DNA of 64,000 nucleotides from Aldrovandia affinis (taxonomy: Eukaryota; Chordata; Actinopteri; Notacanthiformes; Halosauridae). The notes under the pieces are model-generated. The model ran no database searches, was not told the origin of the DNA, and was given only the letters and a program-made list of their open reading frames with translations. The stretch is taken from the NCBI GenBank assembly GCA_029706075.1, contig JAINUG010000256.1:124001-188000 (forward strand), read 5' to 3'. Position 1 is the stretch's first letter, and every line of letters starts with the position of its first letter. The translations under genes were made by a program, and so were the position numbers. Shown here piece after piece: positions 1 to 54,060 of this stretch.

Positions 1-8
1 GTGCGGCT

Positions 9-1194
9 ATGAAAACGTACATTTCCGAATTGTTATCTAACGGGTTTATCAGGTCATCCACGTCTCCTGCTGGGGCGGGGTTCTTTTTTGTTAGTAAAAA
101 AGACAGGGGTTTACGACCATGTATCGATTATAGAGGTTTGAATAACATAACCATAAAAAAATCGATATCCTCTTCCCCTCATGAATTCTGCGTTTGAACG
201 TCTCCAAGGGGCGTCCATTTTTACCAAATTGGATCTTCGTAACGCCTATAATTTGGTGCGGATTCGACAGGGGGACGAGTGGAAAATGGCTTTTAATACT
301 CACAGTGGCCACTATGAGTACCTGGTTATGCCGTTTGGCCTCACGTGCGCTCACGCAGTCTTCCAGGCGCTAGTGAATGACGTTCTCAGGGAGATGTTGG
401 AAAAATCTGTCTTTGTTTATGTGGACGATATCTTGATTTACTCCATTTCCCTCACTGAGCACGTCAAGCACGTAAGACAGGTGCTTAAATGCCTGTTAGA
501 AGCCAGGCTGTTTGTGAAAGCAGAATTTTTTTTATTTCATGTACAGTCAGTTTCCTTTCTAGGATTTATTGTTTCGGAGGGAAGGATCCAAATGGACCCC
601 AGAAAAGTGACTGCGGTCCGGGATTGGCCATCTCCGGGTTCTGTTAAGCAGGTCCAGTGGTTCTTGGGATTTGCGAATTTTTATAGATGGTTTATCCGCA
701 ATTTTATTTCAGTGGTCGCCCCCATCACGGTGCTTACCAAAAAAACAGTCCCCTCTCATTTTCAATGGACTTCTAAAGCGGAGGCGGCGTTCGACGAACT
801 AAAGAGGAGATTCTGTTCAGAGCCCATTTTAATTTCCCCTAACCCTTCGCTGCCCTTCATTGTAGAGGTTGACGCCTCTGAGCTCGGTGTGGGGGCTATA
901 CTATCCCAGTGGTCGGCCTTGGATCAGAAGGTACATCCCTGTGCTTATTTTTCTCTGAGCCTTTCCTCTGCCGAGAGAAATTACGATGTTGGGAACCGGG
1001 AATTATTCCCGGTTAAACTGGCGCTGGAAGAATGGCGTCACTGGTTAGAAGGGGCGGAGCATCCCTTTACTGTCTGGACGGATCATACAAATCTGGAGTA
1101 CATCCAGGGGGCTGAGCGTCATAATTCGCGGCAAGCTCAATGGGCGTTGTTTTTTACCCGGTTTAATTTTCTTTTGACCTACCGTCCGGGTTAA
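9..1194 (+). pseudogene. Gypsy reverse transcriptase and RNase H, frameshifted
   Basis: The first frame (9-about 165) has the Gypsy RT start, with [14 protein letters not shown] and [11 protein letters not shown]. The reading then moves to a second frame that begins at 181 with the continuation of the palm ([15 protein letters not shown]). The catalytic motif [11 protein letters not shown] is intact at about 411-443. The RNase H part includes [34 protein letters not shown] and [13 protein letters not shown]. The reading ends at a TAA at 1192 just after LLTYRPG, where active copies continue with a K-N-I-K-P-D-A-L-type linker, which is still readable after the stop. This is a relic and not a host gene. 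Confidence 0.88.
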
Positions 1195-1224
1195 AAAAAT
1201 ATCAAACCAGACGCTCTTTCCTGC

Positions 1225-1690
1225 TTGTACGATGGGTCAGAGCAAGACCGTCCGCCCACACCCATTATCCCAGTAGCGCAGATTCTATCTCCGGTTTCAT
1301 GGGATATAGAAAAGGTGGTACACGAGGCTCAGCGCCTTGAACCGGATCCTGGTGGGGGTTCTCGGGGGTGCCTCTTTGTACCGTTAGGAGCTCGCGCCGA
1401 GGTACTTCAGTGGGGTCACGGGGAGAAGGATGTGCGGGAGTTTGTGGCAGCCTGTACTGTTTGTGCCCGCAACAAGGGTTCACAGCTGGCACCGTCAGGG
1501 TTACTCCGGCCTTTGCCTGTTCCTCATCGTCCATGGAGCCATATCGCCTTGGACTTTGTTACCGGCCTACCCATTTCGAATGGACATACTGTCATTCTGG
1601 TAGTGGTGGACAGGTTCTCTAAGGCAGCCCACTTCATTCCGCTTCCCAAGCTGCCGTCTGCGCCCGAGACAGCTCGCCTGTCAACAATTG
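1225..1690 (+). pseudogene. Gypsy integrase fragment
   Basis: The reading contains VREFVAACTVCARNKG, the CxxC half of the integrase zinc finger, then LLRPLPVPHRPWSHIALDF and FVTGLPISNGHTVILVVVDRFSKAAHF, the start of the catalytic core with the first Asp positions. The HH half of the finger is largely missing, so an internal deletion is likely near 1400-1430. Similarity stops at about 1680 (PETAR), just before the Tc1 insertion, and the second catalytic Asp and the Glu are absent. Confidence 0.82.
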
Positions 1691-1702
1691 TTGATTGACA
1701 TA

Positions 1703-3148
1703 CACTACCGGTCAAAAGTTTTAGAACACCCCCATTTTTCCAGTTTTTACTGAAATTTAAGCAGTTCAAGTTCAGTGAATAACCTGAAATGGTGCAAAGG
1801 TAAGCGGTAAACTGCCAGAGGTAAAAAAAAAGTTTAGGTTACCAAAAACAGAAAAATTATGTACATTTCAGACTTATGAAAAAAGGCCCTTTTCAGGGGA
1901 CAAGTAATGGGTTAACAACTTACAGCTGTTCTGAAGCAATGGAAGTAAATTAAGCCTTGGAAGTTGATCCAAACAATTCCTACAGGTGTTCCAACTTTTC
2001 AGAATTACTTACAATCCCTCTGTCTGTATAAAAGCAGTATTGGAACAGACTATGTTACTACACCCTCTGAAGCATTATTTGTACAATATTGCACTTCAGG
2101 AAGTAGTATATTGCTATCATAATGGTGAGAAAAAGGCAATTAACAAAGGGAGACCGACAGACCATTATAACCCTTAGAAGTGTAGGTCTTTCCTTTAGAG
2201 AAATTGCAAAGAAGGCCAAGGTGTCAGTGAGTACAGTTTCTACACTATCAAAAGGCACTTGGAAACTCTGACAGGAAGAGGTCTGGCAGACCCAAAGCCA
2301 CAACAAAATCAGAAGACAAGTTTCTGAGAGTCAACAGCTTGCGTGATAGGCAGCTCACAGGACAACAGCTTCAAGCACACTGGTCGAAGTAAGGAACTTT
2401 CAGTGCCAACTGTGAAGAGAAGACTTTGAGCTGCAGGTTTGACAGGTTGAGTGGCAGTAAGAAAGCCATTGCTAAGATGGCAAAATAAGAAAAAGAGGCT
2501 TGCCTGGGCCATGATGGTCTGGGGCTCTTTTGCTGGATCCAGAGTCGGCAACTTGCACAGTGTGACTGGCACCCTGAACCAAAAGGGCTACCACAGCATT
2601 TTGCAGCACCATGCAATACCTTCTGGTCTAAGCCTCGTTGGTCAGGGGTTCATCCTACAGCAAGATAATGACCCAAAACATACCTCCAGGCTATGTCAGA
2701 ACCACCTTAGAAGAAAAGAACAAGACTGTAGGCTTCAAATCATGGAATGGCCAGCACAGTTTCCAGACTTAAACTCCATCGAGCTGATTTGGGATGAACT
2801 AGACAGAAGGGTGAAAGCAAAGCAACCTACAAGTGCAACACATTTGTGGGAACTTCTGCAACTTCTGCAACAGTGTTGGGAAGAACGTTCCAAACAATGT
2901 TTGATTTCCGTTGTAGAAAGAATGCCACTAGTGTGTTCGGCTGTTATCTGCAAAAGGTGGCTACTTTGAGTCAAAAATTTAGATTAGATTAAATTTTGTT
3001 AAACAAAACGGTTCCATGATTTCTTTTTTATCTCCAATTGTTTATTTGTTCTATGCTTTAATTTCAGAGTACATTGAAACATTAAACTGCGTACATATCA
3101 ATAAAAACTGGAAAAATGTAGGTGTTCTAAAACTTTTGACCGGTAGTG
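1703..3148 (+). mobile_element. Tc1-like transposon, about 1.45 kb, inserted in the Gypsy relic
   Basis: Terminal inverted repeats (CACTACCGGTCAAAAGTTTT at the left, its complement ending at 3148) are flanked by TA on both sides, as expected for Tc1/mariner. The same TIR family recurs at 49288-49891, where an internally deleted copy sits in a loxl3 intron. The element carries a decayed transposase on the + strand. Confidence 0.92.
2122..2969 (+). pseudogene. Tc1-like transposase, broken
   Basis: An ATG at 2122 opens a basic N terminus with a helix-turn-helix (VGLSFREIAKKAKVSVSTVS) that soon runs into stops. The catalytic half is in an open stretch from 2451 to 2969. It has [22 protein letters not shown] with the second catalytic Asp, and NSIELIWDELDRRVKAKQP with the Glu of the DD34E triad. 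The segment holding the first Asp (the DET-like motif) is missing between about 2480 and 2510, consistent with a deletion. No function is expected. Confidence 0.88.
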
Positions 3149-3959
3149 TATATATTTTTTTATTTGAATTGTGCAAATAAGGACATAAATTGTCTTAATA
3201 GGGTGTTGTGCCACCATGAGCTACCAGAACTTCAGCTTCAGTGTGCTTGGATACAAGTGTCTGGAACTCTATTGGAACTCTGTTACAACATAGGAAGAAT
3301 GTGATCAGTAATTTGTATTAATTGGCATGTACCTTGCCCTCTAAGGGGTTGAGTGGACCTAAACCATGCAAGGAAAATCTAGCCCACACCATAACAGAGC
3401 AAACAAAACCTTTAATTTAAAGTGTTTCCTTTATTTTGCCAGTTACCTGAAGCAATGATCTTGCTAGCTAAGTATATATGTGGGATACAATTTTGGGGAA
3501 ACGTTGAATGTAAATAATAATAATAAGTAAATAATGGGGGGGGTCATAGCACAGTGCAGAGTTGAGCTGCTCACTAAAAGCCAATTAGGTTTAGCTTTGA
3601 ACCTGTTTGTCCACTTTATTCATATTTGTAACAATACTTTGATGAATGGGGGTTTCTCTAGGAGGTGAAGAGCCATCTTTCCAAAAAGCTATCACCAAAA
3701 GAAAAGTGTGTCTTAGCTAGGTGAAATATCAGGCTTACAATGCTGTTCCTAGCAATGTCACCCTGCCAGACAGTGTACAATGTGCTTTATCATAGAACAC
3801 TTTCCAATACATTTTAGGTGGTGCTCTAGACCAGAGCCTGGTATTGAAATCAGAGCCTAGAAGGATTGAAAAATGTGAACTGCTTTGAACATATCTTTCA
3901 GGATGCCTTCTCTAAGTGCATAGTGTAATTGGTGCATCTGTCATTTGCACCTTTTGAAG
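3149..3959. other. no recognised feature
   Basis: AT-rich DNA between the Tc1 element and the first visible mavs exon. I looked here for the first CARD half (the part ending in an LPCLT-like stretch) in all + strand frames and did not find it. Confidence 0.4.
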
Positions 3960-4140
3960 GAGAAAATTGAGGTGAAGAGGGAAAACAGTGGGAACTACAA
4001 TGCCATGCAGCTGCTGATGACATGTCTGAGAGGCAAGGATACCTGGCTGGAGGAATTTCTCTGCAGCCTGCGTAAATGTGAGCACAGCACCCTCGCGAGC
4101 CAAATACAGGAACAATATGAGTCTCTGAAAGTCCAGCCCA
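3960..4140 (+). CDS. mavs: mavs exon encoding the C-terminal half of the CARD
   Basis: The exon is read from an AG at 3958-3959 to a GTAAGT donor at 4141. It encodes [18 protein letters not shown], then [19 protein letters not shown] and a closing IQEQYESLK helix. This matches the second half of MAVS CARDs, where human has SGNRDT, WVEYFIAALRGCE and LADEV at the same spacing. An in-frame stop at 3921 shows that the exon cannot extend far upstream. The acceptor has a weak pyrimidine tract, so the exact 5' edge (3960 or 3963) is uncertain. The exon ends with one base of a codon, completed by AT at 8652. Confidence 0.82.
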
Positions 4141-7100
4141 GTAAGTCACTCTCTTTTGCACTTTTTCTTCAAATGACCAGTGTGCTCTGGCTGTGAATAG
4201 TGAATTTATTCATGTAAAAAGTGTTGCAGATGAGAGTTACCGCAAGAGATGTGACAGACAGTTTGTCTTACAAATATGTAATTATTTAAATGTTCTATTC
4301 TAATTGTGGAAATATCTGAATAACAACATGATACTTGGAGTGTGACATTTACAGACAGAATTTACGTTTCTCTCCCTCCATGTGTGTGTGTATCAAGGCC
4401 GTAACCATGGAGTCAACATTGGGGGGGACATAGGCTAGGCTATATAGGCTAGGCTATCAGCTAGGCTATATATTGGGGGACATTTTGAGCATATCTCCCC
4501 CCAATATATATGGTAATTTCGGCCTTGTGTGTATACATATATATACAGTTGCAAGAAAAAGTATGTGAACCCTTTGGAATTACCTGGATTTCTGCATAAA
4601 TTGGTCATAAAATGTGATCTGATCTTCATCTAAGTCACAACAATAGACAAACACAGTCTGCTTAAACTAATACCACATAAACAATTATATGTTTTCATGT
4701 TTTTATTGAACACAACATGTAAACATTCACAGTGCAGGGTGGAAAAAGTATGTGAACCCCTAGGCTAATGACTTCTCCAAGAGCTAATTGGAGTCTGGAG
4801 TCTGCCAACCTGGAGTCCAATCAATGAGACGAGATTGGAGGTGTTGGTTAAAGCTGCCCTGCCCTATAAAAAACACACACCAGTTTTGATTTTACTATTC
4901 TCAAGAAGCATTGCCTGATGTGAACCATGCCTCGCACAAAAGAGCTCTCAGAAGACCTACGATTAAGAATTGTTGACTTGCATAAAGCTGGAAAGGGTTA
5001 CAAAAGTATCTCTAAAAGCCTTGATGTTCATCAGTCCACGGTAAGACAAGTTGTCTATAAATGGAGAAAGTTCAGCACTGTTGCTACTCTCCCTAGGAGT
5101 GGCTGTCCTGTAAAGATGACTGCAAGAGCACAGCGCAGAATTGCTCAATGAGGTGAAGAAGAATCCTAGACTGTCAGCTAAAGACTTACAGAAATCTCTG
5201 GCACATGCTAACATCTCTGTTGATGAATCTACGATACGTAAAACACTAAACAAGAATGGAGTTCATGGGAGGACACCACGGAGGAAGCCACTGCTGTCCA
5301 AAAAACTTTGCTGCACGTTTGAAGTTTGCAAAGAGCACCTGGATGTTCCACAGCACTACTGGCAAAATATTCTGTGGACAGATGAAACCAAAGTTGAGTT
5401 GTTTGGAAGGAACACACAACACTATGTGTGGAGAAAAAAGGCACAGCACACCAACATCAAAACCTCATCCCAACTGTGAAGTATGGTGGAGGGGGCATCA
5501 TGGTTTGGGGCTGCTTTGCTGCCTCAGGGCCTGGACAGATTGCTATCATCGACGGAAAAATTAATTCCCAAGTTTATCAAGACATTTTGCAGGAGAACTT
5601 AAGGCCATCTGTCCACCAATTGAAGCTCAACAGAAGATGGGTGATGCAACAGGACAACGACCCAAAGCACAGAAGTAAATCAACAACAGAATGGCTTCAA
5701 CAGAAGAAAACACGCCTTCTGGAGTGGCCCAGTCAGAGTCCTGACCTCAACCCGATTGAGATGCTGTGGCATGACCTCAAGACAACCATTCACACCAGAC
5801 ATCCCAAGAATATTGCTGAACTGAAACAGTTTTGTAAAGAGGAATGGTCCAAAATTCCTCCTGACCGTTGTGCAGGTCTGATCTGCAACTACAGGAAACA
5901 TTTGGTTGAGGTTATTGCTGCCAAAGGAGGGTCAACCAGTTATTAAATCCAAGGGTTCACATACTTTTTCCACCCTGCACTGTGAATGTTTACATGTTGT
6001 GTTCAATAAAAACATGAAAACATATAATTGTTTATGTGGTATTAGTTTAAGCAGACTGTGTTTGTCTATTGTTGTGACTTAGATGAAGATCAGATCACAT
6101 TTTATGACCAATTTATGCAGAAATCCAGGTAATTCCAAAGGGTTCACATACTTTTTCTTGCAACTGTATATATGTGTGTGTGTTACGGTGAATGTGTAAA
6201 ATTGTAAAATTGCGAAATCTGCTAATTCCCCGGTAAATGGGCAGAAAGTTGAAGTATGGAAGTCTATAACGTGAGCAGAGGTCCACCAACTTGTGATAGC
6301 CACATAAATATTGTGTTGGCACAATGCAATGACATGCAATACGATGTACTAACAAAAGAAAATTGATATATGACGCTAATTTTACCCACTGATCTATTTT
6401 GTAATGTGGTCGTACATAACCTGCCATGAATCACATACGGTTACATTATATTTTACATGCCAAGTGTGTACCATTTTTTTAAACGTAGAAAGAGAGGGGG
6501 AGGCAGCCAGGGGAAGGTTTTTTTCAATGTAATGGTGGCAAGCTAGAGTGTAGATTTTTGCTTATGGTTTTATTTTCTCATGGGGGATTATTATTATTGT
6601 TTTACTATAAAGGATTGTTTTTGTGCAATGAATAAATTGGGATTTGCATCAAATAAATTGGCAGACTATTTGAGTTAATACAGACTTTGATATTTTAAAA
6701 AAAGGGACTTCAATCTTTTCTAACATTTCTTGTTTGATTTATTGTGATTTGTGAAAACATTAACGAATTCTAATGAAAAGCATTGAAAACATTTGCTTTA
6801 TTTGCTTATACTTCTGTTTTTTATTTCTCTGTCACAGTTAATTATTGCTTAATCTCTGTCTGGAAACAATTCCTGTGAATATAGCGTGTTCTCCTTTTAA
6901 TTGGGGTTGAATTTGTTATAAGCTCTCTGTCCCGCAGTCAGTTACACATACCCTCTTTTAAACCAGACCGAACAGAAAATGAGTTTTCTACGTATTCTAA
7001 GACCATTAAACCTAATTGTATTCACCCATTCACCCATTTGACAGGTGAATAAGCCTGATATCTTTCAATATAAGCGTAATATGATGAGGAGTGGAATGCC

Positions 7101-10100
7101 CCAAATTGAAGATTTGTTCTGATAGCATAAGGTAACTAGGCAAGATTTAAGTAGCAGCATTGATAATTTCATAAATACATTGGTATTCTAATGATAGGAT
7201 CGCACATCCAACGTCTGAAAATATAACATTCCCAAATTATTTATTTATGCTATCCTACTGACAATATACATAATATAGTATTATTGTACACATATAAGGC
7301 ATTGCACGAGCTGGCGCCGCTTCATATTGCTGAGTTGTTGGTCCCATATACCACAACAAGACCGCTCAGGTCCTCAGGTCATGTTCCAATTCAAATCAAG
7401 GGATGATCGTGCCTTTGCTGTGTTTGCTCCTAGATTCTGGAATAGCCTCTGCTCCTATATTAGATCCGCTGAATCAGTCCCAGCTTTTAAATCTAATCTC
7501 AAAACCCTTTTTTAAATACATTTATTTCTGATTTTTTCCCAGTTTTTCTCCCAATTTGGTTGCCAATTAAACCCTCTATTTACTTGAATTCCCCACCCTC
7601 ACGAGTCCGTCGCCCGTCCTCCGGGATCGAGACACACATTCCTGGTTGAGTGTTCCCACCTCTTTCGAGACGGGAAATCTTCCACGGACTCCTTAACCTT
7701 CCCCTCGACGAACTCGTGCCGGCTCTCCCTCCCCCCTCCCCCGGAGGCGGACAGCCAAATGCCGCCTCCGATTGGGCTGACGACCAGGGCCGGTCTGGTA
7801 GAGAAGCGGGTTTCGATCCGCATCCCTGACGGGCAGCGCACACCACTCTGAAGCGTGGTGCGTTAGACCGCTGCACCATCCGCCAGGCCCCCAAAACCCA
7901 TTTTTACAGATTGGCTTTCCCCAATGTATTATTTTATTGTACTGATTGTTTAGTTTTACTTGTTTTACTTTTATGTTTGTATACTTAATATCCATTGTTA
8001 TGTTTTGCTTTTATTGTTCTTTGTTCTGTGCTATTTTAGTGTCTTTTGTCAAGCACCTCGTGCTCATAGTTAGAAAGGTGCTCTATAAATAAACGTATTA
8101 TTATTATTATAGTCTATGTTTTATATGTGACATTCACAGCATTTATATGTTACAGTAGACAGCAACTGTTCTTTTTGTTCATTTGTCCATTTGTGCATTT
8201 CAATCCAATGTTGAAAGCCTTCAGTTATTTCGGCTATTTCGTTAGCTATAGGAACTAATTTTCCATTTGGGGTAGCTCCTCATAATAATGTACTTATATT
8301 GAACGACATAAGGCTCATTCACCTGTGAAATGGACATTGCATATTGTTATAATTAGGTTTATTGGTCTTGAAATAAGTTGAAATCTGTTTTGCTTATTAT
8401 TTTCTGTTCGGTCTGGCTTAGAAGAAGGTATGCCATCTGACCATGGGGCAGAGAGCAGGTGGACCAGGCAGTCTTCCATGCTTGAACTTTCTACATATTT
8501 ACTGGGGTGTTTACAGATTCCCTATCGCACTGGTGAATTTACACATTCACCATAACACATAACATAACAGAGTATATATATATATAGATGTGTGTATAAA
8601 ACCCTTATTCATAAATGAGTTGAAATTGACATATCAAGTGTTCTCCTGTAGATCGCACTGCTCTTGCTCCCACACCCCATGCCTCTGATGGCACCCCACA
8701 GCCTCCCCTTAACACCAGTACTGCAGCCTCCCCTGATGTTGCTGAGACCCCAGCTTTGGATACAGCTCTCCTCCCCAAAACAAACTTTGGTGACGGGACA
8801 TCGACTAATCACACGGATTCTCCAACTGTAATATTTCCATCCCAGAGCCCCCCAGAACACCCTACTGCCTTCTTGCAAACCTCTCCTACTGAGGAGAATA
8901 CTGGAGCTTCCCCATCAAGCCTCCCTGTAGCCCCAACAGTTGACACTTCCTCTCCTGCAGTACCTTTTCCAGGCCCTCAGGTGCCCCAAGTGAAACTTCC
9001 AGTTCAGGATACCAATTCAGCAGTCACAAAACTACACAATGGAGCTGATATGGCCTCAGAGAGATCTTTGTCAGCAGTGGGTCAGGTGAGCTTATTCCTT
9101 TATATTTCCTGTATGTTCACACCCATGTTAAAATGATGGAAACTTTTGTTGAAAATATTTAAATGACTTCAGATCAGAGAATCTCAAATGGAATAGAAAA
9201 TATAAAATTGGCAAGAGTCAACTCTACTTAAAAGAAAGAGAGGATCTAACTCTCACTAATTCTGTGATTTTTATTAAATATTTCAACAAATACCAGCAAG
9301 AAAGATTGCTCTGCCTTTGAGCAGTTATTTGCTTGATGAAAAATCGTAGCCAAATCATCAATAATCTTTCATGATCATCAATACTCACATACTGTATGTT
9401 CTGTTAAGGAGTGTACTGTATAATCCATAAAACGTACACTTGAACAGTGACTATCATTAATCTCTAACTTTGCACTGTTACTCTTCAAGATTATGGCAAA
9501 AGATCAACATGTAAGTCCAGTGGTGGGGAGTCTGACCCAGGATACAGCTGGAGTTATGGCCTCCTTGACTGCACCGGATGCCACTGATTGCCCTGCCTCT
9601 CCTTCCTGTGTGGAAGGAGCCTCACCAGGTGAAGAATGGTGCCTCAGGAAGCCGGTAATGCTGACGTCCATCCACAGTGTCCAGGTGCACCAGCCATTTG
9701 ATAGCCCTTCCACCTTTCCACCCAGCCCAGAGGAGGGTCTGTACTCTGTAAACCTGGAGTGCAGCTCCAACTCTAATCACAGTTATGAAAGCATCACCCC
9801 CAGCAGTGCTGAGAGGGATACATCCGGCGACACAGAGAGTGTAGATCTCTGTGATCTAGAAAAAGTTTCCCCTAGTGACACCGAGAGTGTTGATCTTTGT
9901 GATCTAGAAAGGGTTGCCACTGACGGCGCAGAAAGTGAAGCTCTCAGAGATGCAGAGAGGGTTGCCCCCAGTGATGCAGAATATGTATCCCCTGGTGCTA
10001 AAGAGAGGGTTGCCTCTGCTGATGCAGCGAGTGTTCACCCAGATGATGTAGATGTCTTATTGTCCAGTGACACCAGGAGTGTACCCCCAGAAAATGTAGT

Positions 10101-13100
10101 AGGTTTTCTGTCTGACAACAAGAAGACCATTGTTCAGAGTGACAAGAACAGCATAGTGTCTGGTAACACTGAGAGTGTTGCTCCCAGCATTGGGGAGAGT
10201 GTAGTGCCAGACCACAAGGCAAGAGTTGCCGTCATTGATGCAAAGAGCTTATTGCATGACGACACAGAAAGTGTTGTCCCTGATGAAGTAGGGGGCATTA
10301 TTTTTGGAGATCCAGAGAGCAGAGCAGAGAAAAATGACCTTACCTACCATAACACCAGCCCCCACAGCCCCACCACAACCAACTACAGCCCAGAGAGTGT
10401 GATCCATGACAATGTAGCTCCTGGCAGCATGCATAATACAGCTGCAGATATCATGGAGAGTATAGCTCCCTGCAATGGGAAAAGTACTGTCTTCAGTGAC
10501 ATAGACTCTGTAGTCCCAAGTGACATATGTCTATCCCAAAATGTATCAAAGGAGAAAAACTATGACTATGGTGAGGGAGACAGTGGGGCTCCAGGCAACA
10601 CAGTCAGAGGGGCCCCTGGACAGGGAGAGAGTGAGGCCCCTGGAAAGAGAGACCATGGGGGCCCTGGTGAGAAAGGCAGTGGGGCCCCTCGACAGGGAGA
10701 CAGTGGGGCCCCAGGTGACACAGACAGTGGGACCCCTGCTGAGGGAGACAATGGGGGCCCTAGTAAAGAAGTCAGTGGGGCCCCTGCTGAGGGAGACAGT
10801 GGGGTCTCAGGCAACACAGACAGTGGGGCCCCTGGTGAGGGAGACAGTGGGGCCCCTCGACAGGGAGACAGTGGGGGCCCTGGTGAGGCAGACAGTGGGG
10901 TCTCAGGCAACACAGACAGTGGGGCCCCTGGTGAGGGAGACAGTGGGGCCCCTCGACAGGGAGACAGTGGGGGCCCTGGTGAGGCAGACAGTGGGGCCCC
11001 AGGTGACACAGACAGTGGGGCCTCTGGAAAGGGAGACAGTGGGGCCCCAGGCAACACAGACAGTGGGGTACCTCGACAGGGAGACAGTGGGGGCCCTGGT
11101 GAGGGAGACAGTGGGGCCCCTGGACAGGGAGACAGTGGGGCCCCAGGTGACACAGACAGTGGGGCCTCTGGAAAGGGAGACAGTGGGGCTCTAGGCAACA
11201 CAGACAGTGGGATACCTCGACAGGGAGACAGTGTGGCTCCTACAGAGGGAGACAGTGGGGCCCCAGATGGCATAAACAGTGGGGCTCCTGGACAGGGAGA
11301 CCAAGGTGACACAGACAGTGGGATCCCTGCTGAGAGAGACAGTAGGGGCCCTAGTAAAGAAGTCAGTGGGGCCCCTGCTGAGGGGGACAGTGGGGTCTCA
11401 GGCAACACAGACAGTGGGGCCCCTCGACAGGGAGACAGTGTGGCCCCTACAGAGGGAGACAGTGGGGCCCCAGGCAAAACAGACAGTGGGACCCCTCGAC
11501 AGGGAGACAGTGGGGCCCCAGGTGACACAGACAGTGAGACCCCTGCCGAGGGAGACAATGGGGGCCCCGGTGAGGGAGACAGTGGGGCCCCTGGACAGGG
11601 AGACAGTGGGGCCCCAGGTGACACAGACAGTGGGGCCTCTGGAAAGGGAGACAGTGGGGCCCTAGGCAACACAGACAGTGGGGTACCTCGACAGGGAGAC
11701 AGTATGGCTCCTACAGAGGGAGACAGTGGGGCCTCAGATAGCATAGACAGTGGGGCTCCTGGACAGGGAGACCAAGGTGACACAGACAGTGGGATCCCTG
11801 CTGAGAGAGACAATAGGGGCCCTAGTAAAGAAGTCAGTGGGGCCCCTGCTGAGGGAGACAATGGGGTCTCAGGCAACACAGACAGTGGGGCCCCTCGACA
11901 GGGAGACAGTGTGGCCCCTACAGAGGGAGACAGTGGGGCCCCAGGCAACACAGACAGTGGGACCCCTCGACAGGGAGACAGTGGGGCCCCAGGTGACACA
12001 GACAGTGAGACCCCTGCTGAGGGAGACAATGGGGGCCCTAGTAAAGAAGTCAGTGCGGCCTCTGCTGAGGGAGACAGTGGGATCTCAGCCGATACAGACA
12101 GTGGGGCCCCTCGACAGGAAGACAGTGTGGGCCCTGGGGAGGCAGACAGTGGGGCCCCAGGTGACACAGACAGTGGGGCCTCTGAAAAGGGAGACAGTGG
12201 GGCCCCAGGCAACACAGACAGTGGGGTACCTCGACAGGGAGACAGTAGGGGCCCTGGTGAGGGAGACAGTGGGGCCCCTGGACAGGGAGACAGTGGGGCC
12301 CCAGGTGACACAGACAGTGGGGCCTCTGGAAAGGGAGACAGTGGGGCCACAGGCAACACAGACAGTGGGGTACCTCGACAGGGAGACAGTGTGGCTCCTA
12401 CAGAGGGAGACAGTGGGGCCCCAGGTGGCATAGACAGTGGGGCTCCTGGACAGGGAGACCAAGGTGACACAGACAGTGGGATCCCTGCTGAGAGAGACAA
12501 TAGGGGCCCTAGTAAAGAAGTCAGTGGGGCCCCTGCTGAGGGAGACAGTGGGGTCTCAGGCAACACAGACAGTGGGGCCCCTCGGCAGGGAGACAGTGTG
12601 GGCCCTGGTGAGGGAGACAGTGGGGCCACAGGTGACACAGATAGTGGGACCCCTGCTGAGGGAGACAATGGGGGCCCTAGTAAAGAAGTCAGTGGGGCCC
12701 CTGCTGAGGGAGACAGTGGGGTCTCAGGCAACACAGACAGTGGGGCCCCTGGTGAGGGAGACAGTGGAGCCCCTCGACAGGGATACAGTGGGGGCCCTGG
12801 TGAGGCAGACAGTGGGGCCCCAGGTGACACAGACAGTGGGGCCTCTGGAAAGGGAGACAGTGGGGCCCCAGGCAACACAGACAGTGGGGTACCTCGACAG
12901 GGAGACAGTGGGGGCCCTGATGAGACAGACAGTGGAGCCCCTGGACAGGGAGACAGTGAGGCTCCTGATGAAGTGGGCATTATAGAGAATCAGTATAACC
13001 CCACTCACCGAGAGGTCAGCTTGCCCTCCTCTGCTTTGTCTGACCACAGCCCAGAGAGAGTTGCCCCCAACAGCATGTGGAGTGTGAGCCCTGGCAACAC

Positions 13101-13695
13101 AGAGACACTCCACATTGAGCCTGAAGAGAACCACTATAGCTCTTTTCACCTTAAGATCAGCTTGAGGTCTGCAGGATCATGCATCCAGAGCACAGACAGG
13201 ATAACCCCTAACAACATAGGGACTGTACCACCTGATCAAACAGCCCCCCCAAAAAACATAGGGAGCCCACCCCCTGGGGATACAAACACCCCCAACAAGC
13301 AACTAACAGAGGACCACTGCAACTCCACCCACCGGAACATCAGTTTGACCTCTGCTGACTCACTCAACCACAAGCCAGACAGTGTTGCCCCCGTTGATAT
13401 GGAGTCGCACACACACAAGCTAATGGAGACTCAATACAACTCTGCTTGCCATGGTGTAACAAATGAGCAAGCAGAGCAGAAAAATTACCTCTGTATGTCT
13501 GAAGACTCAGCCATCCAGAATCACCCCGCTTTTGATGAAACACCAGGGGGCGCTGTCACAAAGAACCACCACCCTGCAGAGGCTCTTCAAGAACAGGCCC
13601 AGGCGAACACCAGAATCCTGCAAGGAAACTACTACGTACATGCTGCTGCTGTCACTATGGTTGCCGCGGCAATTCTATGGCAACTGAAGAAGTAG
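3960..13695 (+). CDS. mavs: mavs, mitochondrial antiviral signalling protein, 5' partial; exons 3960-4140, 8652-9085, 9490-13695
   Basis: MAVS is the adaptor on the mitochondrial outer membrane that receives the signal from RIG-I and MDA5 through CARD-CARD contact and recruits TRAFs, TBK1 and IRF3. Three exons join with consistent phases (181 nt leaving one base, 434 nt restoring frame, then phase 0) and give about 1,606 codons. In order they encode the second half of a CARD, a Pro/Thr/Ser-rich region with PVQDT, a huge disordered Asp-Ser-Gly-Ala-Pro repeat, PEENHY, HLKIS and a C-terminal hydrophobic anchor followed by QLKK. Human MAVS has the same order in about 540 residues. The first CARD half and the start codon are outside the window or unrecognised. 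The call rests on the CARD pattern plus the tail anchor plus the TRAF motifs; no alignment was run. Confidence 0.85.
4394..4527. mobile_element. short palindromic MITE
   Basis: The ends are perfect inverted copies, CAAGGCCG and CGGCCTTG, and the inner part folds back through GGGGGGGACA/CCCCCC and repeated TAGGCTAGGCTAT. It is 134 bp long with no coding capacity, in the large mavs intron. Confidence 0.55.
4546..6166 (+). mobile_element. Tc1-like transposon, 1.62 kb, nearly complete, with about 210-bp inverted repeats
   Basis: Both ends are flanked by TA. The outer TIR is CAGTTGCAAGAAAAAGTATG and its complement, and each arm (about 4546-4755 and 5955-6166) carries a second inner copy of the AAAAAGTATGTGAACCC motif, the IR/DR layout of Sleeping Beauty-like elements. 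The two arms are nearly identical over about 200 bp, so this is a young insertion. It lies in the mavs intron in the same orientation as the gene. Confidence 0.95.
4927..5946 (+). pseudogene. Tc1-like transposase with two frameshifts
   Basis: The transposase starts at an ATG at 4927 ([12 protein letters not shown]) and runs as three overlapping open stretches, 4927-5151, 5141-5479 and 5428-5946, ending in a TAA after GGSTSY. The paired-like DNA-binding domain ([20 protein letters not shown]) is followed by [13 protein letters not shown] with the first catalytic Asp, [10 protein letters not shown] with the second, and [15 protein letters not shown] with the Glu. About 340 residues is the usual length. 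Only small indels near 5140 and 5430 break it. Confidence 0.93.
7305..8105 (+). mobile_element. LINE 3' end (RT C-terminal tail plus 3' UTR), split by a SINE
   Basis: Residues [20 protein letters not shown] at 7411-7470 match the conserved C-terminal tail of L2/Rex-type LINE proteins (PRLWNSLP-like). After the SINE the 3' UTR resumes at about 7906 and ends with GAAAGGTGCTCTATAAATAA and (TTA)n at about 8105, a typical LINE end. Confidence 0.7.
7525..7905 (-). mobile_element. tRNA-derived SINE
   Basis: Read on the - strand it starts with a tRNA-like head. GGTGCAGCGGTCTAA resembles box A and GGATCGAAACC fits the box B pattern. It ends in AATTGGGAGAAAAACTGGG. AAAACCC before the element and CAAAACCCA after it look like a target-site duplication inside the LINE tail. 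Relatives are at 15225, 39020, 48085 and 59925. Confidence 0.78.
8652..9085 (+). CDS. mavs: mavs exon encoding the proline-rich region with a TRAF-binding motif
   Basis: The acceptor is TTCTCCTGTAG at 8641-8651 and the donor is CAG|GTGAG at 9085/9086. The 434-nt exon starts by completing the codon left from 4140 and then reads [18 protein letters not shown] onward, rich in Pro, Ser and Thr. PVQDT at 8999-9013 fits the PxQxT TRAF2/3/5 consensus and matches human MAVS PVQET in type and in position after the CARD. The exon ends in phase 0, in frame with the next. Confidence 0.83.
8999..9013 (+). other. mavs: PVQDT, candidate TRAF2/3/5-binding motif
   Basis: Codons CCA GTT CAG GAT ACC read PVQDT, fitting PxQxT. 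Human MAVS uses PVQET for TRAF3. Binding is inferred from the motif and its position only. Confidence 0.7.
9086..9489 (+). other. mavs intron between proline-rich and last exon
   Basis: A 404-bp AT-rich intron with GT/AG ends. No repeat or RNA feature was recognised. Confidence 0.6.
9490..13695 (+). CDS. mavs: mavs last exon: degenerate and expanded repeats, TRAF6 and pLxIS motifs, tail anchor
   Basis: The acceptor is TACTCTTCAAG ending at 9489, and the exon runs 1,401 codons to TAG at 13693-13695. From the ATG at 9493, residues 1-100 are unique, 100-350 are degenerate ESVAPxD-like repeats, about 359-1158 are about 100 copies of an 8-residue xxDSGAPx unit, and 1159-1400 are unique again. The tail holds PEENHY (13120-13137), HLKIS (13147-13161) and a final hydrophobic helix [19 protein letters not shown] of the tail-anchor type. 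The repeat region lacks Cys and is rich in Asp, Gly, Ser and Pro, so it is predicted disordered. The frame stays open through all 24-bp units, which argues for selection on, or at least tolerance of, the coding frame. Confidence 0.85.
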   Translation: MMAKDQHVSPVVGSLTQDTAGVMASLTAPDATDCPASPSCVEGASPGEEWCLRKPVMLTSIHSVQVHQPFDSPSTFPPSPEEGLYSVNLECSSNSNHSYESITPSSAERDTSGDTESVDLCDLEKVSPSDTESVDLCDLERVATDGAESEALRDAERVAPSDAEYVSPGAKERVASADAASVHPDDVDVLLSSDTRSVPPENVVGFLSDNKKTIVQSDKNSIVSGNTESVAPSIGESVVPDHKARVAVIDAKSLLHDDTESVVPDEVGGIIFGDPESRAEKNDLTYHNTSPHSPTTTNYSPESVIHDNVAPGSMHNTAADIMESIAPCNGKSTVFSDIDSVVPSDICLSQNVSKEKNYDYGEGDSGAPGNTVRGAPGQGESEAPGKRDHGGPGEKGSGAPRQGDSGAPGDTDSGTPAEGDNGGPSKEVSGAPAEGDSGVSGNTDSGAPGEGDSGAPRQGDSGGPGEADSGVSGNTDSGAPGEGDSGAPRQGDSGGPGEADSGAPGDTDSGASGKGDSGAPGNTDSGVPRQGDSGGPGEGDSGAPGQGDSGAPGDTDSGASGKGDSGALGNTDSGIPRQGDSVAPTEGDSGAPDGINSGAPGQGDQGDTDSGIPAERDSRGPSKEVSGAPAEGDSGVSGNTDSGAPRQGDSVAPTEGDSGAPGKTDSGTPRQGDSGAPGDTDSETPAEGDNGGPGEGDSGAPGQGDSGAPGDTDSGASGKGDSGALGNTDSGVPRQGDSMAPTEGDSGASDSIDSGAPGQGDQGDTDSGIPAERDNRGPSKEVSGAPAEGDNGVSGNTDSGAPRQGDSVAPTEGDSGAPGNTDSGTPRQGDSGAPGDTDSETPAEGDNGGPSKEVSAASAEGDSGISADTDSGAPRQEDSVGPGEADSGAPGDTDSGASEKGDSGAPGNTDSGVPRQGDSRGPGEGDSGAPGQGDSGAPGDTDSGASGKGDSGATGNTDSGVPRQGDSVAPTEGDSGAPGGIDSGAPGQGDQGDTDSGIPAERDNRGPSKEVSGAPAEGDSGVSGNTDSGAPRQGDSVGPGEGDSGATGDTDSGTPAEGDNGGPSKEVSGAPAEGDSGVSGNTDSGAPGEGDSGAPRQGYSGGPGEADSGAPGDTDSGASGKGDSGAPGNTDSGVPRQGDSGGPDETDSGAPGQGDSEAPDEVGIIENQYNPTHREVSLPSSALSDHSPERVAPNSMWSVSPGNTETLHIEPEENHYSSFHLKISLRSAGSCIQSTDRITPNNIGTVPPDQTAPPKNIGSPPPGDTNTPNKQLTEDHCNSTHRNISLTSADSLNHKPDSVAPVDMESHTHKLMETQYNSACHGVTNEQAEQKNYLCMSEDSAIQNHPAFDETPGGAVTKNHHPAEALQEQAQANTRILQGNYYVHAAAVTMVAAAILWQLKK
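9810..10310 (+). repeat. mavs: old degenerate coding repeat, ESVAPxD type
   Basis: Imperfect units of about 10-14 residues recur, such as [47 protein letters not shown] and [10 protein letters not shown]. Similar units return after the young array ([30 protein letters not shown]). The young array itself has GDSVAPTE units, so it may have grown from this older motif. Confidence 0.65.
10567..12966 (+). repeat. mavs: 24-bp coding minisatellite, about 100 units, in the mavs last exon
   Basis: The unit core is GACAGTGGGGCCCC, in a 24-bp period, coding for xxDSGAPx with variants such as [32 protein letters not shown] and QGDSVAPT. The unit variants form higher-order blocks: a QGDSVAPT[11 protein letters not shown] block, which shares a 9-nt loss, recurs near 11221, 11692 and 12379 (spacings about 471 and 687 bp). 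Because 24 is a multiple of 3, other frames on both strands are also open here. Confidence 0.95.
13120..13161 (+). other. mavs: PEENHY (TRAF6-type) followed by HLKIS (candidate pLxIS)
   Basis: PEENHY at 13120-13137 fits PxExx(aromatic/acidic) and resembles human MAVS PEENEY. Only three residues later, HLKIS at 13147-13161 fits the pLxIS pattern used by MAVS, STING and TRIF to bring in IRF3 after serine phosphorylation. In human MAVS the pLxIS site lies before PEENEY, so the order differs here. Related degenerate units ([20 protein letters not shown]) lack the Leu. Confidence 0.6.
13630..13692 (+). other. mavs: C-terminal tail anchor of MAVS
   Basis: About 15 mostly non-polar residues ([15 protein letters not shown]) are followed by QLKK and the stop. 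A single C-terminal helix with a short basic end is the mitochondrial outer-membrane tail-anchor layout of MAVS. Confidence 0.75.
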
Positions 13696-21023: not shown

Positions 21024-22381
21024 CAGTGGGGAAAATAAGTATTTCACCCCCTGCTGATTTTGTGAGTTTGCCCCCTTACAAAGAAAGGAACGGAACGGTC
21101 GGTCTATACATTTCATGGTAGGTTCATCTTAACAGTGAGAGACAGAATATAAGAAAAAATCCCAGAAAATCACATTATATGAATTTTAAACATTTATTTG
21201 TGTTTTATTGAGGAAAATAAGTATTTCACCCCCTAGCAAAACAGCAAGAATTCTGGCTCCCACAGACCGGTTATGTGACCAGGAGGCACACAGATTAGTC
21301 CTCTTACTTAATTAGTACTCCTAATTAAGTACTCGTTACCTGTATAAAAGACAACTGTCCACAGAATCAATCAATGAATCAGATTCCAACCTCTCCACAA
21401 TGGGCAAGACCAAAGAATTGTCTAAGGACATCAGGGACAAAATTGATAATTAGAAAATGGAAGAAACACCAATTGACCATCAATCTCCCTCGGTCTGGGG
21501 CTCCACGCAAGATCTCACCTCGTGGAGTGAACCTGATCATGAGAAAGGTGAGGGAACAACCCAGAACTACACGGCTGGAGCTTGTTGATGATCTCAAGGC
21601 AGCCTGGACCACAGTCACCAAGATGACCATTGGTAACACACTACGCCGTAATGGATTGAAATCCTGTAGTGCCCGCAAGGTCCCCCTGCTCAAGAAGGCA
21701 CATGTACAGGCCCGTCTGAAGTTTGCCAATGAGCACCTGGATGATTCAGAGGAGGCTTGGGAGAAAGTGCTGTGGTCAGATGAGACTAAAATCGAGCTCT
21801 TTGGCATCAACTCGACTCGCCGTGTTTGGAGGAAGAAAAAAGCTGCCTTGGACCCCAAGAACACCATCCCCACCGTCAAGCATGGCGGTGGAAACATTAT
21901 GCTTTGGGGCTGTTTCTCTGCTAAGGGCACAGGACGACTTCACCGGATCGAGGGGAGGATGAATGGGGCCATGTACTGGGAAATCTTGCGTGAGAACCTC
22001 CTTCCCTCAGCCAGGACACTGAAAATGGATTTCTAAGGATTTGGAGAGGATCTGCAAAGAGGAGTGGGCCAAAATCCCTCCTGGGATCTGCGCAAACTTG
22101 GTGACCAACTACAAGAAACGTCTGACCGCTGTGCTTGCCAACAAGGGTTTCTCCACCAAGTACTGAGTCATGTTTTGCTAGGGGGTGAAATACTTATTTT
22201 CCTCAATAAAACACAAATAAATGTTTAAAATTCATATAATGTAATTTTCTGGGATTGTTTTTAATATTCTGTCTCTCACTGTTAAGATGAACCTACCATG
22301 AAAATTATAGACCGTTCCTTTCTTTGTAAGGGGGCAAACTCACAACATCAGCAGGGGGTGAAATACTTATTTTCCCCACTG
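21024..22381 (+). mobile_element. Tc1-like transposon, 1.36 kb, non-autonomous
   Basis: TIRs of at least 70 bp start CAGTGGGGAAAATAAGTATT and are flanked by TA. An inner copy of AATAAGTATTTCACCCCCT lies in each arm (IR/DR layout). The transposase inside is deleted in two places. Confidence 0.93.
21401..22166 (+). pseudogene. Tc1-like transposase lacking the catalytic centre
   Basis: The reading starts [15 protein letters not shown] at 21401 and continues, after a loss of part of the DNA-binding domain near 21450, as an open frame to 22036 with [16 protein letters not shown] (first Asp) and [16 protein letters not shown]. The stretch holding QQDNDPKH and NPIE is deleted at about 22030, and only the last part ([20 protein letters not shown] to KGFSTKY) remains up to TGA at 22166. 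It cannot be active. Confidence 0.88.
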
Positions 22382-38335: not shown

Positions 38336-41300
38336 CTGGGAATAAAGGAGAGACCAGACCACAGAGCATTAGCTTTTAGCTGCGGATGAACTTGTGCTTT
38401 TAGCTGAAGATGAACCTGTGCTTCTAGCTACAGCTGAACCTGTGCTTTTAGCTGCAGTTGAACATGTGCTGCAGTGTGCTGTGTGCTTTTAGCTGCAGCT
38501 GAATGTGTGTTTTAGCTGAAGAGGAACATGTACTTTTAGCTGCACCTGAATGTGTGTTTTAGCTGCAGCTGAACCTGTGCAATCAGTTCATGCAAACAGT
38601 TTGGAATCGACTAAAGTAATCCAAGAGGATTTAAACAAATGTAAAGTTATGCATGTGGGAAATAAAAACATAAGACAGGAGTATTTTATGGGAGGATAAA
38701 AATGTGTAGGTGTTCAATTTGAAAAAGACTTAGACTTTGATCAACTACAATTCCTATCTGCATCAAAGCAGTGTGCTACAGCAGTGAAAACGGACAACAG
38801 GATGCTGGGATACATAGCAAAAAGCAGGGGCGATTCTAGGATCGGGTAGTAGAGGCAGAAATACTTGGGCTATTCAAGTCTAGGATAGATGCAGTACTAG
38901 ATACTCTTTAGATTAGGACAAGACGAGCCTAGATGGGCTGATTCTTGTCATTATGTATCCTTATGTATTCTTATCTTAACCTGTGCTTTTAGCTGCAGCT
39001 GCGATCACCGAGTAATCATCCCTGCTGATTTTATCCAGTTTTTTCTCCCAATTTGGTAGCCCATTACAGACGGCCATGCCGTAGACCACAACCCGGTACA
39101 ACAGCACCACTCCTGTGTGCAGCGAACGCCATGTCAGCTTCCCTCCCCCCTCCCTGGGGCAGACAGCCACTTGCCGCCCCCGGTGGCACTCTTGGCCAGA
39201 GCTGACTCTGGTGCGGCCGGTGGAATTGAACCCCGGTCGCCGTGGCCAGCGTTGGACGTTGAAATCACGGGACCACGTGGGAGGCTCCGAAATCAGCCCT
39301 GCTTAGTGGGAGATACATTGAAACTCTCTTATATTAATTACACTGGTCCAACCTAATTTGATTCTTATGAATCAAAGCATTTTATATGGGTTTGTACTGG
39401 TTTTACCCAAAGACTATGGCCAGAATTTGTGGCAATGCAAATCTTTCATCAATAATTCTGCGCATAATTTTCTGGGGGCGACACTGGTTAGCGTCTTGGG
39501 CTGGCAACCGGAGGGTTGCTGGTTGGAATCCCAGGATTCCCTCCGGGCACCTGGTAGCCCTCTTCGCAGTCTCGCCTCTTCTCTGTCCTGACCCCTCGAT
39601 GTTGGAATGACCTTCCGTAATCGGTCAGGACCGCGGAATCACTTGCGATCTTCCGCAAGAGACTCAAAACCCACCTTTTCAGACTCCACTACCACTGAAT
39701 TCTGTACTTCTAGCCAATTGTCGTCACCACTGCCTACTTGTTCAATACTTTTTGTATATGTATCCCTGCTTACTCCTCATTTTAAAAAATATAATAATAA
39801 TACATTTACTAACCTTTATCTTCCCAGTGTTACAGGTATGGTATGCAGCTGCCTACAACTATGTCTATCGCTGTATTACTGCACTGATCTCTTGCACAAA
39901 CTATGATTGTTCCTACCATGTATTAATGCACATATTGTAAGTCGCTCTGCATAAGAGCGTCTGCTAAATGCTTAAAATGTAAAATGTAAATGTAAAATGT
40001 AGGAAGGCCAAACAGAACAACAATGAACTGGAAACCGGAGGGATGTTGGTTCACCTCCTGGTGCACTGCCGAAGTGCCTTTGAGCAAGGCAATGAACCCT
40101 TAACTGCTCCAGGGGCGGCGTACTATGGCTGACCCTGCGCTCGGACCTCTCTTAGTAGAGCTATGCGGAAAAACTCATTCCAATTACTTTGTGTAACATG
40201 GCAATAAAGAATATTAAATTAAATGTGTGCATATCCCATTTATTTTCCAGCATTATAACAATATGTAGATCCTTATAAGAGGATCCTTACTGAATTGAAA
40301 AATGTATAGATAAATTAAATTCTGGAGGTTTGGTAGTTTTTGTTCCAGCCACTGCTGCTATCGTTTTATTTGCTCAGTTAGTAGCAAAGCTTCAATATTT
40401 TTTATATTCACTTACGACTAAAGACTGCCCATGCAGTGTATTTTTGGGAAGTGCATCATGTTGAGTAAATGTTAACAGTGTATAAGGTGTTTTGCCAGTA
40501 ACATGGAACACAGTTCAATCAGTCTTACCGGCTCCCCCGACTCACCAAGATGGCATTTGTGCAGCCAAACACGATGGCCATCGTACTTGCAGTTGCATTT
40601 CATGGCGTTGTTGGTGAAATCACTCTCCGCCACTTCAAAGTTTGGGTTTATCACCACCTGAGCAGGGGGAATGAAGAGACCCTCTGAAGATTTCTCAGCC
40701 TCAGGTCCTTGATTCTCAGTAATAATTTTCCAATCTCCTATACTTTCCCTTGCAATACTTTCCATCCTGTTGCTCATTAATACAGCTGAGTGTGGGCTGG
40801 GGCAACTGCAGAAAAGATCCTGACCTCCTCACTCGAGGTTCAACTGCAGTGTCTCACCTGGGATTCAAACTTGTAACTCAATTGCCATAAGCACTATTTT
40901 GCTGTGCCTCATTGCTCTCCTGACACTATTGTAATGTAAGTGCTTAGTGGACTATTGGATTTTATGGTTGGATGCTTTGGACCAGAGTAATACTTGTCAG
41001 TGTATGGTGAAATGTACAGTTAAAGCAATTTTGCTTTTAGTATATGTCAACATACTGTGCGGTCCAAAACACACACTACCAAGATCTGTTTGTTTTCATC
41101 ATTCATCGATAACTAACACAAACTTTTTACTCATGTGGTATTTGTTATTCAAAAATGTCATAAAACACTGATAGGTGAAATAGAAAATGTTTGTTTGAGA
41201 AAGGATGGTATGAAATTGAAATATCTATAAATATTAAGTTTGCACACCGTTGCCTTTCATTTCCTCAAATGCCTCTTATTTTTCATTTAGGTTTTAATAC

Positions 41301-42506
41301 ATGGACACTCCTAATACACAGTGTGAGTTGTTTGTCTTGTAACAATTAATACAGAATATTGACGTATGTGTTCTCCTTGCTACTGCAGGTGCTTTAATAT
41401 TGAAAAGGACACTTCCTTTGCAAAAGTTTTTGCAGCTATTTGTAATTATGTCAGCAGAGCTTAGTGAAGTAGTTAGAGGGCCTGGGTAAAAATGTTGTGT
41501 TCGTTTTTGATGAATGATGAAAAGAAACAGGTCTTGGTTGTGGACTCAGACTTTTGGACCATACTGTATGTGGCACACACGTATGACATTTTTACACATG
41601 TAAATTGTAGATATTTTTACATGTGGTATTGTATAAGATACTTGAGAACATAAACAGAAAATTACAGGAATGGAAGTGGCAATCATATTTATATACCAGA
41701 TATGGTAGATTCTGACATATTCCTTAAATTGTAAAGATTATAAATCTTAATATATACTATTCGTTAACGGAATCTCTTCACATAGTTTATTTTATATTTA
41801 TCCATTTTCTGTTTTCCCTACACTTTCTGCCACACCCATATCTGATCTTTGGGCTCCATGTTTACCTGTAATATGTAGCTTCCTGGTTTGACATCGGTGA
41901 TGTCGATCCACTGGCAATCGATATCATGGCGGTACACATCCCAGCATCCCACTGTGATTCCTTGTTCGCCGAAGTTGGCACACTCATACCGCTTTGAAAT
42001 CCCTGGAGAATTTGCACAATACACCATGGACACACTTCCCTTACATTCATGCAATGTAAGCAGACACTCAGTATTATATCTCATTGTCAATATAAACCAG
42101 TCAATTATAGCATGCTGTCATGAAGTACAGAATCTCTGTACTCATCTCTGATTTAGTGTTCACTCGGTTTAATGCCAAGCCTAGGCATGCAGTACATTAG
42201 AGGACTTACTACTGTGTGAAGAACCAACAGTGTGTCATGTCAAGTAGAGTGTACATGGAATTACACCCAGTAACAAGACACCACTGCAAATTAAATGTGC
42301 AACAACTCTTGCTCACCAGCATACTTCAAGCACTTCCTCTGTAGTTTCACCAACAGAGGACGCTATAAATACTCACTTCCCCTGACAGGCTGCTCAACTA
42401 CAGCTCTGAAACGAAGAGCTTATTTATTTATTTTATCAAGGCTATGCAGATCCACTAACATGTCAGTCATCTGGATAGATACTGAGTACACCATATAAGC
42501 CAATCC

Positions 42507-42541
<35 letters not shown>

Positions 42542-53672: not shown

Positions 53673-54060
53673 CTGCAGACGTGAGGACATGACCAATAAA
53701 CATCCTATAGGGTAGTGTCTTGGAGGGTCGCAGGGTATGCTGTTTTTTGTTTTCACCTTATAACCAGCACCCAATTTAAACCCAAGAAGCCAGATGAGGT
53801 GAGTTAACTGTGTAATTAAACCTGCTTTAATTGATAAATTGAGTGCTGATTACCAACAAAAACCAATACACCCTGTGGCCCTCCAGGACTGGAGTTTGGG
53901 AACCATGCTATAGGGGATTTAACCAATAAACACCTTGATTAACAAACACTGTGCGTGGGGAAATACAGGGCAGTATATGAAAGGGTACATTCCCACACTC
54001 AGGCAAACAGAAATGACACAAAATATCACAGCGGACTATACAGTAGAGTTGAAGTACTCT
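53673..54060 (-). other. sequence upstream of the first visible loxl3 exon
   Basis: Intron sequence preceding the SRCR3 exon; nothing recognised. Confidence 0.4.

Follow-up and report, generated by a model that had tools for sequence, protein, structure and literature searches.

A putative long MAVS paralogue of elopomorph fishes with a re-amplified 8-residue repeat array in Aldrovandia affinis

On its + strand, the stretch of Aldrovandia affinis DNA analyzed here (64,000 nucleotides, hereafter the window) contains what looks like an intact gene, the product of which is an unusually long relative of MAVS, a protein of antiviral signalling. The comparisons presented below indicate that this gene is a long MAVS paralogue of elopomorphs (eels, bonefishes, tarpons), distinct from ordinary MAVS. 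They also indicate that the 8-residue period of its product is older than the 24-bp array found in its last exon, the array having been re-amplified from an existing repeat domain. As an overall explanation, we lean slightly towards an elopomorph long MAVS paralogue acting as a CARD adaptor that is fixed to a membrane and bears a long acidic spacer, and whose array was recently re-amplified to about 100 units.

Three exons were recognized on the + strand. The first (3960..4140) encodes the second half of the CARD and ends at the donor CCCA/GTAAGT in phase 1. Its assignment is based on the CARDs of relatives, on Pfam CARD_2 (PF16739, E 6.3e-11, 42.6 bits vs. a curated cut-off of 28.2, profile positions 38-92) and on a PDB search, in which MAVS accounted for 9 of the 15 matches listed, the MAVS CARD chains starting at 4.6e-4 behind a top match to an MDA5 (IFIH1) chain at 3.1e-4. 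The proline-rich exon (8652..9085), which is also matched in relatives, lies between the acceptor cctgtag/AT and the donor GGTCAG/gtgagc, both read directly. The last exon (9490..13695) contains 1,401 codons from the acceptor before 9490 to the stop (13693-13695), within a frame that is open over 9451-13695, and its parts flanking the array match five long relatives. Splice sites and phases of the three exons are compatible, and joining them gave a stop-free product of 1,606 residues. As this product lacks the first CARD exon, which the numbering of relatives puts at about 41 residues, the full protein is expected to reach about 1,650 residues, in line with the length of about 1,600 proposed in the sequence-only reading. 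Visual inspection of those + strand open stretches in window 1-4000 that have at least 20 residues did not reveal a first CARD exon.

The same upstream segment, window 1-4000, contains a piece of a transposase and a reverse transcriptase of gypsy type. Throughout the window, pieces of reverse transcriptase, DDE_3 and Tc3-type transposase were found at 157-1194, 2451-2969, 5398-5946, 21329-22036 and 54482-55423; the piece at 5398-5946 is located in the stretch that separates the CARD exon from the proline-rich exon, and two more lie just upstream of the CARD exon. A neighbouring lysyl-oxidase-like gene has its exons at 40472-53757 on the - strand (two frames with Lysyl_oxidase, two with SRCR). 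Also, two other tandem repeats were detected: a minisatellite at 45861-47205 (31 bp, 43.5 copies, 90% matches), outside the long open frames listed, and a 24-bp repeat at 38372-38580 (9.1 copies, unit GCTTTTAGCTGCAGCTGAACCTGT), the sequence of which is unlike that of the mavs array.

Putative binding sites were located by motif count. The proline-rich exon encodes PVQDT, a PxQxT motif of TRAF2/5 type (8999..9013, + strand), and the last exon encodes, on the same strand, PEENHY, of TRAF6 type (13120..13137), and HLKIS, which is pLxIS-like (13147..13161). Human MAVS has motifs of the same kinds: an excerpt of PMC3743401 gives the TRAF motifs PVQET (143-147), PGENSE and PEENEY (455-460), and an excerpt of PMC4518314 gives L439, I441 and S442 as residues serving TBK1/IRF3. 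The region following the array (12967..13692, + strand), recognized by its identity to the five long relatives, ends with a 22-residue tail anchor (13627..13692), assigned by its likeness to the consensus NYYIPAAAxAGVxALxMLWxLRN of the tails of long and short relatives. A MAVS-type CARD (second half), a PxQxT site in the proline-rich region, TRAF6-type and pLxIS sites, and a tail anchor together place the product in the MAVS family. The post-array region also holds three sites of the loose pattern H(L/R)x(I/V)S (HREVS, HLKIS and HRNIS, 13006-13344). By this same pattern, three sites each were counted in both Albula proteins and in the long Megalops protein, and one each in Anguilla and Conger; the post-array sites may possibly derive from multiplication of a pLxIS-like site.

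The array (10567..12966, + strand) lies inside the last exon, between the proline-rich region and the TRAF6/pLxIS/tail-anchor end, where the sequence-only reading had put it. It spans exactly 800 codons with no stop, which, for the copy number present in the assembly, consist of a Tyr at the front, 98 full 8-mers and three copies of the 5-mer GQGDQ; the earlier figure of about 100 in-frame copies was therefore borne out. The unit consensus is G-E/Q-G/T-D-S-G-A-P. Register shifts occur only at the three 5-mers, which keep the frame because each is 9 bp shorter than a full unit. Thus, it is correct that no unit is frameshifted and that the downstream end, with PEENHY, HLKIS and the tail anchor, stays in the last-exon frame to 13695. 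The 98 full units fall into 46 different kinds at the residue level and 54 at the DNA level. With 957 G, 571 C, 596 A and 276 T, the coding strand of the array is rich in G. Among the periods reported by Tandem Repeats Finder, 24 bp gave 101.2 copies with 63% matches, 72 bp gave 33.7 copies, and 471 bp gave 4.1 copies with 83% matches over 10938-12869. Block copies at offsets of 157, 386 and 229 codons (471, 1158 and 687 bp) showed identities of 91.3, 90.9 and 90.2% across 244, 228 and 201 codons, respectively, the blocks at 471- and 687-bp offsets being 9-10% diverged. The array thus grew in A. affinis by recent duplication of blocks of several hundred bp.

Several readings of the array content were set aside. 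Among known domains in Pfam, only Cornifin matched the array (E 0.0035), and we read this match as a low-complexity likeness since its 18 bits are below the cut-off of 34.8. Multiplication of TRAF motifs by the repeat was rejected, as the array contains no PxExx[DEFWY], no PxQxT and a single [PSAT]x[QE]E. The sequence-only reading had also suggested a phospho-acceptor surface with one DSG per unit. The array does contain 67 DSG; with the beta-TrCP degron defined as DSGxxS and CK2-type motifs in their usual definition, we counted 0 DSGxxS, 4 DSGxx[SDE] and 11 CK2-type sites per 800 residues. CK2-type sites are few because 79 of the 98 units have Pro at position +3 from the DSG serine. These counts leave the phospho-acceptor suggestion weak, and a role of DSG as beta-TrCP degron or as a field for acid-directed kinases was rejected.

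The 8-residue period extends upstream of the array. The part of the last exon that precedes it gave z-values of 6.3, 8.6, 5.0 and 7.1 at lags 8, 16, 24 and 32, and when it was compared with the array unit, the best matches in frame reached 18, 17 and 16 of 24 bases, with no more than 11 and 12 in the two remaining frames. In this old, degenerate stretch (9826..10566, + strand), whose pattern is roughly D/N-T-E-S-V-x-P, pN was 0.48-0.56 at lags 8, 16, 24 and 32 vs. 0.68-0.72 at lags 7, 9, 15 and 17, while pS was near background, with 0.66-0.79 in register vs. 0.70-0.84 out of register. The lower in-register pN combined with background pS means that the period is visible at the residue level while silent sites are saturated. 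Thus, the 8-residue pattern ahead of the array has outlasted the DNA likeness among its copies. In the part that follows the array, the lag-8 signal was not clear (z 1.4).

Three protein searches led to 15 proteins; in one of them, scoring was confined to the 7,993 candidates with the most words in common, so that ordinary MAVS of other fishes are under-sampled. Five of them are long relatives: Anguilla rostrata (LOC135259621, 1201 residues), Conger conger (LOC133135408, 1111 residues), Albula glossodonta (1152 residues), A. goreensis (1146 residues) and Megalops cyprinoides (1279 residues). Three are short MAVS from genera that we take to be elopomorph, namely M. atlanticus (455 residues), M. 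cyprinoides (454 residues) and Synaphobranchus (522 residues). The remaining proteins fetched come from Coilia, Denticeps, Paralichthys, two Etheostoma and Amia, together with a 649-residue gene model of A. anguilla. The CARD exon of the window is 68-70% identical to the CARDs of the long proteins of Anguilla, Albula and Conger, and 56% identical to that of the long Megalops protein. Identity to the five long relatives is 34-49% in the proline-rich exon (57-147 columns), 33-39% over most of the last exon before the array, and 43-50% after it (238-245 columns). All five have the layout of CARD, proline-rich part, acidic 8-residue-periodic part and tail anchor, the Conger model being without the CARD start.

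Periodicity was examined in 9 of the 15 proteins and in three regions of the window. The five long proteins gave lag-8 z-values of 13.3, 11.3, 8.6, 9.7 and 9.8. For the ordinary proteins profiled from M. cyprinoides (short), Synaphobranchus (short) and Paralichthys, the six strongest lags did not include lag 8, and Coilia MAVS showed a weak signal (z 3.9). Units were then scored in 11 of the 15 proteins and in the window with a profile made from the units of the window itself, which favours the window. The window reached 104 units, A. rostrata 28, Conger 23, A. glossodonta 30, A. goreensis 34 and the long Megalops protein 13; the A. anguilla model reached 9, and the five ordinary MAVS tested 0-2. 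Shuffled sequences gave mean counts of 13.9 (window), 3.7-5.2 (each of the five long proteins), 2.3 (A. anguilla) and 0.65-1.35 (ordinary MAVS). The sequence-only reading had called for a comparison of last exons in related fish; presence of the repeat is upheld by the period in all five long relatives, and a copy number like that of the window is not, with 13-34 units vs. 104. The repeat units of the relatives are also older and more degenerate than those of the window array, and the expanded stretch of the long Megalops protein consists of a different, ESVAPGD-like 8-mer. The A. anguilla model matches the A. rostrata protein and omits two last-exon stretches with most of the repeat units, which could be due to splicing, with introns in the repeat region, or to a modelling error.

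Phylogenetic analysis of the CARD and the tail (127 columns, 15 rows) placed the window and the five long proteins on one side of a branch supported at 100/99. The window was thus positioned within the long group and not with short elopomorph or other teleost MAVS. This tree, the motif count and the first AU-test tree covered 14 of the 15 proteins, the A. anguilla model being left out, and Amia (344 aa), which is without the tail, was included by its CARD only. In a tree of the non-repeat parts (6 of the 15 proteins and the window), the window was next to Albula at 91/92, a branch that was not starred, and in these parts its highest identity was to Anguilla (56%); the position next to Albula suggests, short of proof, an albuliform or related fish. 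AU tests, run to see whether the two copies arose in the teleost genome duplication or on the elopomorph stem, rejected none of the three arrangements compared, i.e., an elopomorph-only duplication (p 0.075), short proteins with other teleosts (p 0.199) and long proteins with other teleosts (p 0.466). Long and short kinds were observed in one species solely in M. cyprinoides, where the long gene and the 454-residue MAVS are on separate contigs of 31.2 and 27.9 Mb. The identification of the gene as MAVS made in the sequence-only reading therefore holds at the level of the family, through CARD_2, the PDB matches, the tail and the motifs, and has to be amended from MAVS itself to a long paralogue.

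Selection on the array was evaluated from its own copies. Nei-Gojobori dN/dS values for the three longest block pairs were 0.99, 1.04 and 1.31, within a range of 0.67-1.85 across the 25 longest pairs, which overlap. A minimum spanning tree of the unit variants required 98 substitutions, of which 23 were synonymous against 26.4 expected. These values indicate that the residues of the array drift nearly freely. No stop occurred among the inferred substitutions, where chance would give just 1.8, so that this deficit is not significant (P 0.16). Also, the antisense frame over the array is likewise open (10566-12989, 807 aa, no stops). Openness alone is thus weak evidence, and the homologous flanks bear the weight; for the same reasons, we dropped the open frame as a proof of selection. 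The exception to this near-neutral drift is the Asp-Ser core, which is under-mutated (13 changes vs. 24.0 expected, P 0.004, for a pair picked post hoc among seven adjacent pairs).

These results bear directly on the main rival to the spacer reading, namely that the repeat number is meaningless. The array would then be neutral baggage, a coding minisatellite with a 24-bp unit in a gene that works with, and tolerates, any length of acidic disorder. Such an explanation draws on dN/dS values close to 1 between the array blocks, on the synonymous share expected by chance, on the spread of unit numbers from 13-34 in relatives to 104 by a profile built on the window, and on the separate 8-mer expanded in Megalops. 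Against it stand the residue-level period in the old copies and in five species, the under-mutated D-S core, and a length of at least 1,111 residues in all five long relatives, and we consider it rather unlikely. A spacer for which length and charge count, and in which Asp-Ser is retained, agrees with the conserved period as well as with the near-neutral drift.

The signalling motifs were compared across the family. In the long line, PxQxT was found in the window and in Megalops (PVQDT) and is missing from Anguilla, Conger and both Albula, and the C-terminal PxExxY was found in the window and is missing from all five long relatives. A pLxIS-like motif is present in 5 of the 6 long proteins, window included. 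Short elopomorph MAVS have PEEDHY (3 of 3), PVQDT (2 of 3) and RLQIS (2 of 3), the M. atlanticus version of the latter being RLQMS. As the TRAF motifs are not kept across the family, signalling by the long paralogue may differ from that of MAVS. It might instead be a regulator, whose tail-anchored CARD would enter MAVS filaments and dilute or delay TRAF recruitment through eroded and distant TRAF sites. The loss of both TRAF motifs in Anguilla, Conger and the two Albula proteins, next to their retention in short MAVS and to the CARD and tail anchor kept by the long line, points in this direction. On the other hand, PVQDT, PEENHY and HLKIS are all present in the window gene, Megalops keeps PVQDT, and the pLxIS-like motif is widespread, which makes a purely regulatory paralogue improbable in our judgement.

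That this gene is the ordinary, sole MAVS of A. affinis, a protein of 500-600 residues freshly enlarged by a minisatellite insertion, along the lines of the sequence-only reading, was rejected as scarcely credible: its anatomy is complete except for the first CARD exon, but the layout and the 8-residue period are shared by long relatives of four other genera, older 8-mers lie ahead of the array, M. cyprinoides has a separate short MAVS, and the tree places the window in the long line.

Under the reading that we prefer, that of a long paralogue with an acidic spacer, the last exon would long ago have turned into an 8-residue repeat domain, one stretch of which would have been re-amplified to about 100 units in A. 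affinis by block duplication. By analogy with MAVS, the CARD would join RLR-nucleated CARD filaments, and the C-terminus would anchor the adaptor in a membrane. The repeat region of about 1,000 residues, acidic and probably disordered, would keep the filament off the membrane as an entropic spacer bearing charge, and would separate the CARD-side PVQDT from the membrane-side PEENHY/HLKIS block. Spacer length, charge and repeated Asp-Ser would then count for more than the exact residues. We infer disorder, filament entry, the spacing role and the expression of the long protein. In the proposal of an 800-residue acidic, disordered spacer between CARD and membrane made from the sequence-only reading, the acidic stretch is indeed in place, with a net charge of -112 for the array, and disorder is the inferred part.

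Net charge was computed for 9 of the 15 proteins and the window. The whole window protein has -10.8 per 100 residues, within the range of -9.7 to -12.1 of five long proteins (window, Anguilla, Conger, A. glossodonta, Megalops), and the three short elopomorph MAVS have -2.9 to -3.3. The ordinary MAVS of Paralichthys and Coilia, with -10.3 each, show that acidity does not set the long proteins apart. This acidity counts against the spacer reading, as do the dN/dS values near 1, which leave little residue-level constraint in the array, the TRAF motifs missing from Anguilla, Conger and both Albula, the weak lag 8 of Coilia and the A. anguilla model short of units.

Compared with known systems, the closest are the elopomorph long MAVS-like proteins themselves, which have the same CARD, proline-rich part, acidic 8-residue-periodic part and tail anchor, at 33-70% identity by region. 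They differ from the window in their 13-34 scored units and in the absence of PxQxT from 4 of the 5 and of the C-terminal PxExxY from all. Canonical teleost MAVS (Megalops 454/455, Synaphobranchus 522, Paralichthys 643 residues) share the CARD, the proline-rich region and the tail anchor with the window. Their pLxIS and PEEDHY/PGENHY sites are about 20-45 residues apart, whereas in the window, from which alone this order was read, the place matching pLxIS precedes the repeats and PEENHY follows them. In an alignment of 9 of the 15 proteins (three long ones and six others, without the window), the short RLQIS paired with the pre-repeat stretch, as NLECS in Anguilla, and the PEEDHY site was not paired with the post-array region. 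Mucins are also coding minisatellite proteins, in which a tandem repeat varies in number within one exon and stays in frame. In contrast to mucins, the repeat of the window is acidic, belongs to a cytosolic immune adaptor, and is built on an older repeat of equal period. Human MAVS has 540 residues according to an excerpt of PMC12364878, and MAVS is described as one gene in mammals in an excerpt of PMC5536018. Judged by title and beginning of the abstract, none of the papers listed in literature searches that did not extend to most subscription journals deals with a second or repeat-bearing MAVS in elopomorphs. The elopomorph paralogue with its repeat domain is a little-described second line of MAVS.

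We tentatively put forward, as a possibility still open to considerable doubt, that a second, giant MAVS has been kept in elopomorphs for well over a hundred million years as a length-tunable device, in which the CARD and the TRAF6/IRF3 block would be held apart and the repeat number re-set in each lineage by block duplication, with either a signalling output of its own or a brake on ordinary MAVS. The paralogue reading would also mend the database names of these proteins, which are 'uncharacterized' for the long proteins of Anguilla and Conger and 'cell surface glycoprotein 1-like' for that of Megalops, the long Albula proteins being named MAVS in UniRef. A long second MAVS with a block-duplicating spacer would constitute a natural experiment on the distance of the CARD filament from the membrane and from the TRAF sites.
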